37,445 bases of DNA from an uncultured Microcaldota archaeon (GTDB taxonomy: Archaea; Micrarchaeota; Micrarchaeia; Anstonellales; J096). Of this stretch, positions 25,369 through 34,276 are shown one piece after another; the stretch's first letter is position 1; every line of letters starts with the position of its first letter. Under the pieces are notes generated by a model. That model was given only the letters and a program-made list of their open reading frames with translations, was not told where the DNA came from and did not search any database. The translations under genes were made by a program, and so were the position numbers. The stretch spans positions 1 through 37,445 of the forward strand of contig CALKCX010000006.1 in assembly GCA_938083015.1 (NCBI GenBank). The letters run 5' to 3'.

Positions 25369-25460
25369 TGGGCCTGGTGGGATTTGAACCCACGACCTAC
25401 GGCTAGCTTAGACAGAGTGTCCTATAAGACCGTCGCTCTGCCTAGCTGAGCTACAGGCCC
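25369..25460 (-). tRNA. tRNA-Ile(UAU) with 18-nt intron at 37/38 (intron 25405-25422)
   Basis: Mature: GGGCCTGTAGCTCAGCTAGGCAGAGCGACGGT-CTTATAA-GCCGTAGGTCGTGGGTTCAAATCCCACCAGGCCCA. Intron GGACACTCTGTCTAAGCT; full bulge-helix-bulge fold (ACGGT/GCCGT, CTA bulge, CTTA/TAAG, TAG bulge, GACA/TGTC). Confidence 0.9.
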
Positions 25461-32952: not shown

Positions 32953-33002
32953 ATTATAATAAAAAACAAATAGCTTTTTAAAGATATTTATTTAATTATT
33001 TT

Positions 33003-33689
33003 ATGAATACAAAGCTAGGTGATAGCGTTGTTTTATTGAATCAAAATTTAAGAGCACCTAGCATAGCAATCCCCGATACTAATATATTGTTAGGCGTAAT
33101 GATAGATACTCTTAAATCAGGATCAGATGATCATAATGAATATCTATTGCGTCTTATTAAAATAGCTAGAAAACATCCAATGCTTATACACCCAATCGCT
33201 CTAGGGGAGATGAGAGATAATTTAAGAAGAGCTTTAAAACAAAACAATATGTCAGATAGATATAATCAAGCTGAAAAGATTTGTGGGGAGCTTATGACAA
33301 AAATGAACGGTTATTTAAATAAAAATCTTATAAATCAATTACAAGGTATATTAAATTTATTAGGTAGAGATGTATTAGATAGTATATATTCGACTGAACG
33401 TAATATAAAAATTATACACCAAGAGAGAATTACATATGAAGAACTACATAGATCGCATTTTGACACATATCTTATATTTATGGCCGTTTTATTTAAGAGT
33501 GAATTTAAAGAATTACAAAAATTATTTGGTATTGTTGATTCTAGATTTGAATCTTATGAAACACAAGCTGGACGTATATTAGTGTTCCCCACAATATATG
33601 ATGGCCTATATCCTAAGGAATTGTTTAAAGCAAACATTATCGTGATTAGCAATGACAACACCTTGATTAATTTTCTAAAATCACAATGA
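33003..33689 (+). CDS. PIN-domain-like nuclease
   Basis: IPDTNILLGV (first acidic motif), HPIALGEMRDNL (Glu motif), HRSHFDTYLIFMAVLFK (third acidic motif), IIVISNDNTLINFLKS (C-terminal strand with D). Confidence 0.7.
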   Translation: MNTKLGDSVVLLNQNLRAPSIAIPDTNILLGVMIDTLKSGSDDHNEYLLRLIKIARKHPMLIHPIALGEMRDNLRRALKQNNMSDRYNQAEKICGELMTKMNGYLNKNLINQLQGILNLLGRDVLDSIYSTERNIKIIHQERITYEELHRSHFDTYLIFMAVLFKSEFKELQKLFGIVDSRFESYETQAGRILVFPTIYDGLYPKELFKANIIVISNDNTLINFLKSQ

Positions 33690-34276
33690 TTTATATTAAA
33701 CCTCTTAGATTACCTATTGGACATAGAATAAAAAGTAAAAAGTATATGACAGAAGCTCAGGCAAATGATTTATTTAGTAATCATCTGGTTGTAGAAGAAA
33801 AGATGGATGGAAAGCATACAGCAATAACATTAGATGGTCTTATTCTATTCGTTGAAGATTTGAAATATAGAAGGACAATTCCTTATGTAGTACCAGCTAG
33901 ATACTGTTTATTTGATATATATGATTTGAAGAGACAATTAATACTTGGTAGATCTAGTAAAGAAATGGTTTTCTATATGCTATTAGAAAAATACCCCGAA
34001 TTAATTAATAAAATGTTTCTCGTTAGAAAAATAGCTGATTTAGGTCCTAATATTGATTGGAAAACAGTTATACCGAAACTTGCAGCACAGAGTTCACCTT
34101 ATGTTGAACATGGAATGATGGAAGGAGTTGTTGTAAAGTTAGCACACGATACACCTATACTTAATATACCTAATCCAATATCCGGAAAATTTATTAATCA
34201 AGAATTCTATAATAGAATGACACCTAGTAAGATAACGGGAATGAATAAAATAAACCCATTATTTACAACCTACTAA
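33686..34276 (+). CDS. Minimal ATP-dependent RNA/DNA ligase-like nucleotidyltransferase
   Basis: Motif I VVEEKMDGKHTAI (KxDG), motif III/IIIa-like YCLFDIYDL, motif IV MEGVVVKLA, motif V-like ISGKFINQEF. ATGA overlap with the PIN gene. Confidence 0.72.
   Translation: MIYIKPLRLPIGHRIKSKKYMTEAQANDLFSNHLVVEEKMDGKHTAITLDGLILFVEDLKYRRTIPYVVPARYCLFDIYDLKRQLILGRSSKEMVFYMLLEKYPELINKMFLVRKIADLGPNIDWKTVIPKLAAQSSPYVEHGMMEGVVVKLAHDTPILNIPNPISGKFINQEFYNRMTPSKITGMNKINPLFTTY

Follow-up and report, generated by a model that had tools for sequence, protein, structure and literature searches.

Overlapping PIN-like and ligase genes in the window

The window analysed here is a 37,445-nucleotide stretch of DNA that makes up the entire contig C6 of an uncultured Microcaldota archaeon (genome G000; 518 kb, 84% complete). 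Two open reading frames follow each other on its forward strand, and the TGA stop of the first (ORF1) overlaps the ATG start of the second (ORF2). An initial annotation had read them as a translationally coupled PIN nuclease and a minimal RNA or DNA ligase; both ORFs are real, and all the motifs quoted for them are present (PDTN, ALGE, HFDTYL and SNDNT in ORF1; KMDGKHT, YCLFDIYDL, MEGVVVK and GKFINQEF in ORF2). The features of the locus are as follows.

32953 to 33002, no strand: 50-bp gap from the divergent surface-protein gene to ORF1, a candidate promoter region by position
33003 to 33689, + strand: ORF1, PIN-like protein, 228 aa (ORF call; four acids; Pfam PIN_12 at E=0.002, below the cut-off)
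33686 to 33689, + strand: ATGA, the ORF1 stop (TGA) overlapping the ORF2 start (ATG)
33686 to 34276, + strand: ORF2, predicted one-domain RNA-ligase-type nucleotidyltransferase, 196 aa (Pfam, AlphaFold model, PDB fold matches, motif table)
33075 to 33077, 33207 to 33209, 33462 to 33464 and 33654 to 33656, + strand: putative active-site acids D25, E69, D154 and D218 of ORF1
33800 to 33802, + strand: K39 of ORF2, motif I lysine (motif table)
34121 to 34123 and 34136 to 34138, + strand: E146 and K151 of ORF2, motif IV (motif table)
34187 to 34189, + strand: K168 of ORF2, motif V lysine (motif table)

On one side the pair is flanked by a divergent gene for a NosD/pectate-lyase-like (beta-helix-type) surface protein, and on the other by a run of convergent pilin-like ORFs without Pfam matches. 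The surface-protein and pilus setting described at the outset is therefore correct for the window locus but does not hold in general, being specific to the window's genus. Elsewhere in the window (25369-25460) ARAGORN calls a tRNA that, oddly, has only two bases in its anticodon; this tRNA is perhaps intron-bearing or unusual.

ORF2 matches the Pfam RNA_ligase family (PF09414) at E=1e-4, which is under the cut-off, and most of its relatives match it over the cut-off at 1e-8 to 1e-11. Its AlphaFold model is confident (pLDDT 83.5, pTM 0.83), and motifs I, III, IV and V are complete (K39-M-D-G, FDI, E146-G-V-V-V-K151 and K168). The best structural matches of the model in the PDB are all Naegleria gruberi RNA ligase (Rnl5 group, PDB 5cou and others; PF09414), with which ORF2 has the nucleotidyltransferase fold and the motifs in common, but ORF2 is shorter by about 140 residues and shares about 15% identity with the Naegleria-type enzyme, at a TM-score of 0.5-0.6 over the query. 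Whereas Rnl5 enzymes are defined by an N-terminal OB domain together with the nucleotidyltransferase domain, the 196-aa model of ORF2 comprises the catalytic domain alone, which agrees with the earlier remark that the protein would lack an OB domain. Sequence and model together make a firm case for ORF2 as a minimal nucleotidyltransferase of the ligase fold and a predicted RNA ligase. No phage relatives of this mini-ligase were returned by tblastn with one relative's ligase as the query.

The PIN half of the proposed identity was borne out in part. The four putative active-site acids of ORF1 stand in the order D, E, D, D, which fits the PIN pattern, and all four are invariant in the syntenic gene of a second genome (G007) despite 31% identity (BLASTP E=0.003). 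The match of ORF1 to Pfam PIN_12 lies under the cut-off, and its AlphaFold model, built from a two-row alignment, reached a pLDDT of 37. The sequence evidence that ORF1 is PIN-like, and hence a predicted nuclease, is good but not final, and this identity is weaker than that of the ligase. A PDB sequence search with both proteins and both profiles as queries gave no usable match, and neither ORF had a match in PHROGs.

Distribution and arrangement of the pair

A ligase profile search across the 303 genomes of the window's Micrarchaeota class found the mini-ligase in 16, a sample of few, mutually related draft genomes. A PIN-like gene immediately adjoins the ligase in nine of them: the PIN gene precedes the ligase collinearly in G000, G007, G107, G104 and G103, the two are divergent in G002, G005 and G035, and in G100 a convergent PIN, present as a fragment only and found with the PIN profile, ends 9 bases from the ligase. 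We infer a tenth pair in G004, where the PIN and ligase genes each stand at the start of a separate contig, because the flanks of both contigs (SHMT-like; PIN-KH ATPase-like) match the divergent pair of G005. In an eleventh genome (G006) decayed remnants of both genes lie at the site that the pair occupies in G000 and G007. The pair is thus found in three orientations and about six neighbourhoods. The initial annotation had named beforehand the lack of co-occurrence in any relative as grounds for giving up the idea of a module, and a PIN neighbour was found in nine genomes, G000 included.

The ATGA overlap recurs in identical form in G007 (L002 1498-1501) and was seen in this genome and G000 alone. 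In the other pairs the genes are collinear but spaced apart, or else stand in divergent or convergent orientation; the stoichiometric co-translation on which the first interpretation had leaned is therefore not the rule.

In G009, G076 and G079 both flanks of the ligase can be read and neither holds a PIN gene, and none was seen in G051 and G105, where the ligase lies at a contig end. An intact mini-ligase from an Elusimicrobia relative (L013 5974-6618) is likewise without a PIN neighbour and adjoins an ACT-domain-like gene. In the class survey, genomes without a ligase match gave no PIN-profile match below E=1e-10, an absence that is partly circular because nine of the adjacent PINs served to train the profile, so that fast-evolving orphan PINs may escape it. 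The PINs of G004 (profile of three others) and G100 were found independently.

Ligase active sites and divergence of the partners

All scored PIN-partnered ligases retain the motif I lysine, the motif IV glutamate and lysine and the motif V lysine; the G103 ligase, which is split over two contigs, was left out of the motif table, and its fragments show KMDG, MEGIVVK and GKIVREEF. Where no PIN was detected, four of the five Micrarchaeota ligases (G009, G051, G076 and G079) have lost the motif IV glutamate and either the motif I or the motif V lysine, and these four decayed proteins form the longest four branches of the ligase tree. The fifth (G105) is intact, and its contig begins 46 bp upstream. 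Motif retention differs between the ten partnered and the five unpartnered ligases at a Fisher p of 0.004, a value not corrected for relatedness. That the active site has decayed in most ligases with no detected PIN strengthens the case for a functional link between the two proteins. The mini-ligases of G079 and G076 (L079 5010-5672 and L080 3580-4236) are diverged, probably inactive open frames that stand beside similar proteins of 622-632 aa, which suggests that they retain a non-catalytic role; the one in G079 also has a CCA-adding-enzyme-like gene as a divergent neighbour.

Pairwise identity is lower for the PIN than for the ligase in almost every comparison: G000 and G007 share 46% in the ligase but 31% in the PIN, and G005 and G004 share 60% and 35%, respectively; the exception is G007 against G035 (ligase 31%, PIN 32%). 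Leave-one-out tests place seven compact PINs in one family, to which those of G000 and G007 were not joined. That the window PIN is too diverged to join the other partner PINs by sequence, and that three ligases with both flanks visible (G009, G076 and G079) have no adjoining PIN, is what would be expected if two unrelated genes had come to lie together by chance. This explanation is nevertheless largely refuted and we reject it as very improbable, since the adjacency has been retained over three orientations and about six neighbourhoods, and those same three ligases have lost catalytic residues. As a rough estimate, not a measurement, six independent neighbourhoods would arise with a probability of about 1e-10 if a 2% chance of a PIN neighbour is assumed for each locus.

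Relation to known RNA-cutting and RNA-sealing systems

All 16 ligase genomes carry RtcB, and 14 of the 15 that were checked carry the tRNA-splicing endonuclease EndA, which rules out the pair as a replacement tRNA-splicing set and indicates that it is an addition to tRNA splicing. EndA-RtcB splicing and the RNA repair systems Pnkp-Rnl-Hen1 and RtcAB have a cut-and-seal or repair logic in common with that proposed for the pair (PMC4411300; PMC7790460), but their nucleases and ligases are unrelated to those described here, and the present pair would not be expected to need end healing.

Among known systems, HARP-Rnl3 comes closest. A link between HARP, which is an RNase P of the PIN type, and the ATP RNA ligase Rnl3 was reported in 2025, with roles in circularisation and as a toxin-antitoxin discussed, and the two genes are patchily distributed and co-localised (PMC12153264). 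As is proposed for the window, a PIN nuclease (PIN_5, protein-only RNase P) is combined with an ATP RNA ligase (TIGR01209/PF18330), and the two are patchy in archaea, often neighbours and variable in orientation. The components differ, however. Rnl3 has about 355 aa against about 200 aa in ORF2, which has the catalytic domain only, and no TIGR01209 match was found in G000, ORF2 included. ORF1 has no match to PIN_5 (PF08745) in a Pfam search and is ruled out as HARP itself on this profile evidence. The only PIN_5 match of G000, its HARP, lies on another contig (C10:33395-33925; L078 4387-4929) and is not accompanied by Rnl3, so that the PIN and the mini-ligase constitute a separate pair.

In the window's order, HARP and Rnl3 stand tail to tail in G008, G035, G037, G042 and G051, of which G035 carries the mini-ligase pair as well. 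Every mini-ligase genome of family f1 is without Rnl3, a hint that the mini-ligase may have replaced it there, and in families f18 and f19 the mini-ligase pair occurs in genomes that lack both HARP and Rnl3. Almost every member of families f1 and f3 carries HARP itself. A search with strict filters detected archaeal RNase P RNA in none of the eight genomes of genera g1 and g2, and likewise not in the f3 genus g15; HARP may be the sole RNase P there, as judged from this search for the RNA alone.

The pair also recalls VapBC, another compact module of two genes that includes an RNase of the PIN type. VapBC is defined by a VapB-type antitoxin; the partner here is a ligase-fold enzyme and not a small DNA-binding antitoxin. 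The ligase-fold protein could alternatively be an antitoxin of another kind, which modifies or binds the PIN to silence it, as MNT proteins do with HEPN toxins, without sealing any RNA. An accessory two-gene module with a PIN-type RNase would suit such a role, as would the fact that ORF2 is missing the additional domain on which known RNA ligases rely for sealing. We nonetheless regard it as improbable, given that the PIN-partnered ligases keep the full set of ligase motifs, motif V included, that the fold is that of a ligase and not of the MNT type, and that the window proteins have no match to known defence or toxin-antitoxin models.

A candidate cut-and-seal pair

RNA cut by a PIN RNase as a rule carries a 5'-phosphate and a 3'-hydroxyl at the break. 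These are the ends that ATP RNA ligases join, as is stated for MthRnl (PMC5599603). If ORF1 behaves like its family, the PIN protein would cut an RNA to leave such ends, and the mini-ligase, to judge from its conserved motifs I, III, IV and V, would charge K39 with AMP from ATP, activate the 5'-phosphate and rejoin it to the 3'-hydroxyl. The break made by the PIN would then be the substrate of the ligase, and no end-healing enzyme would be required, unlike in EndA/RtcB chemistry. Both proteins probably act on one and the same RNA, which the first would cut and the second reseal; this best explains their matching predicted chemistry, their adjacency through rearrangements and the decay of the sealer in most genomes in which no PIN was detected. 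We consider a dedicated two-protein cut-and-seal pair for RNA somewhat better than an even bet, and our best reading is that it is the second such pairing of a PIN protein with an RNA ligase after HARP-Rnl3.

If this reading is correct, the pairing would join a ligase of another kind to a PIN protein that has no match to HARP, and combinations of this sort would seem to be a solution reached repeatedly, not a peculiarity of HARP. Because the active site of the ligase has decayed in most genomes in which no PIN was detected, the targets of the small ATP RNA ligases of archaea can be probed directly with just two small proteins. A one-domain ligase that comes naturally with a cutter could also be of use as an RNA tool.

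Within the cut-and-seal reading, two roles may be considered. The pair could take part in the processing of cellular RNA in the manner of HARP-Rnl3, so that a precursor such as a C/D box RNA would be trimmed or cut by the PIN and then circularised or spliced by its partner, without toxicity. This has a published precedent that is likewise patchy and co-localised (PMC12153264), and the lack of Rnl3 in all f1 mini-ligase genomes would fit a replacement. The f18 and f19 genomes, where neither HARP nor Rnl3 accompanies the pair, and G035, which has both pairs, speak against it, and the greater variability of the PIN in nearly all comparisons would be unusual for a housekeeping processing enzyme. 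Such a maturation role is possible but is the less favoured of the two. Slightly preferred is damage and repair, in which the fast-evolving PIN would be the cutter and the ligase its antidote, because ligases persist without a PIN and no PIN was found without a ligase, an asymmetry that also counts against maturation. We therefore put forward, tentatively and with well under even confidence, an archaeal toxin-antidote system of RNA damage and repair in which an ATP RNA ligase would reseal the cut made by its partner PIN, independently of both EndA-RtcB and HARP-Rnl3.

Variation in PIN genes and their surroundings

The PIN of G103 (L091 9577-10608) is extended at its C terminus by about 130 aa, and a HIT-family-like gene lies upstream of the PIN gene in both G103 and G107. 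In G004 a Fic-like ORF with a HPFIDGNGRAGR motif (L046 648-1559) stands between the PIN and the SHMT gene, and it is absent from that position in G005.
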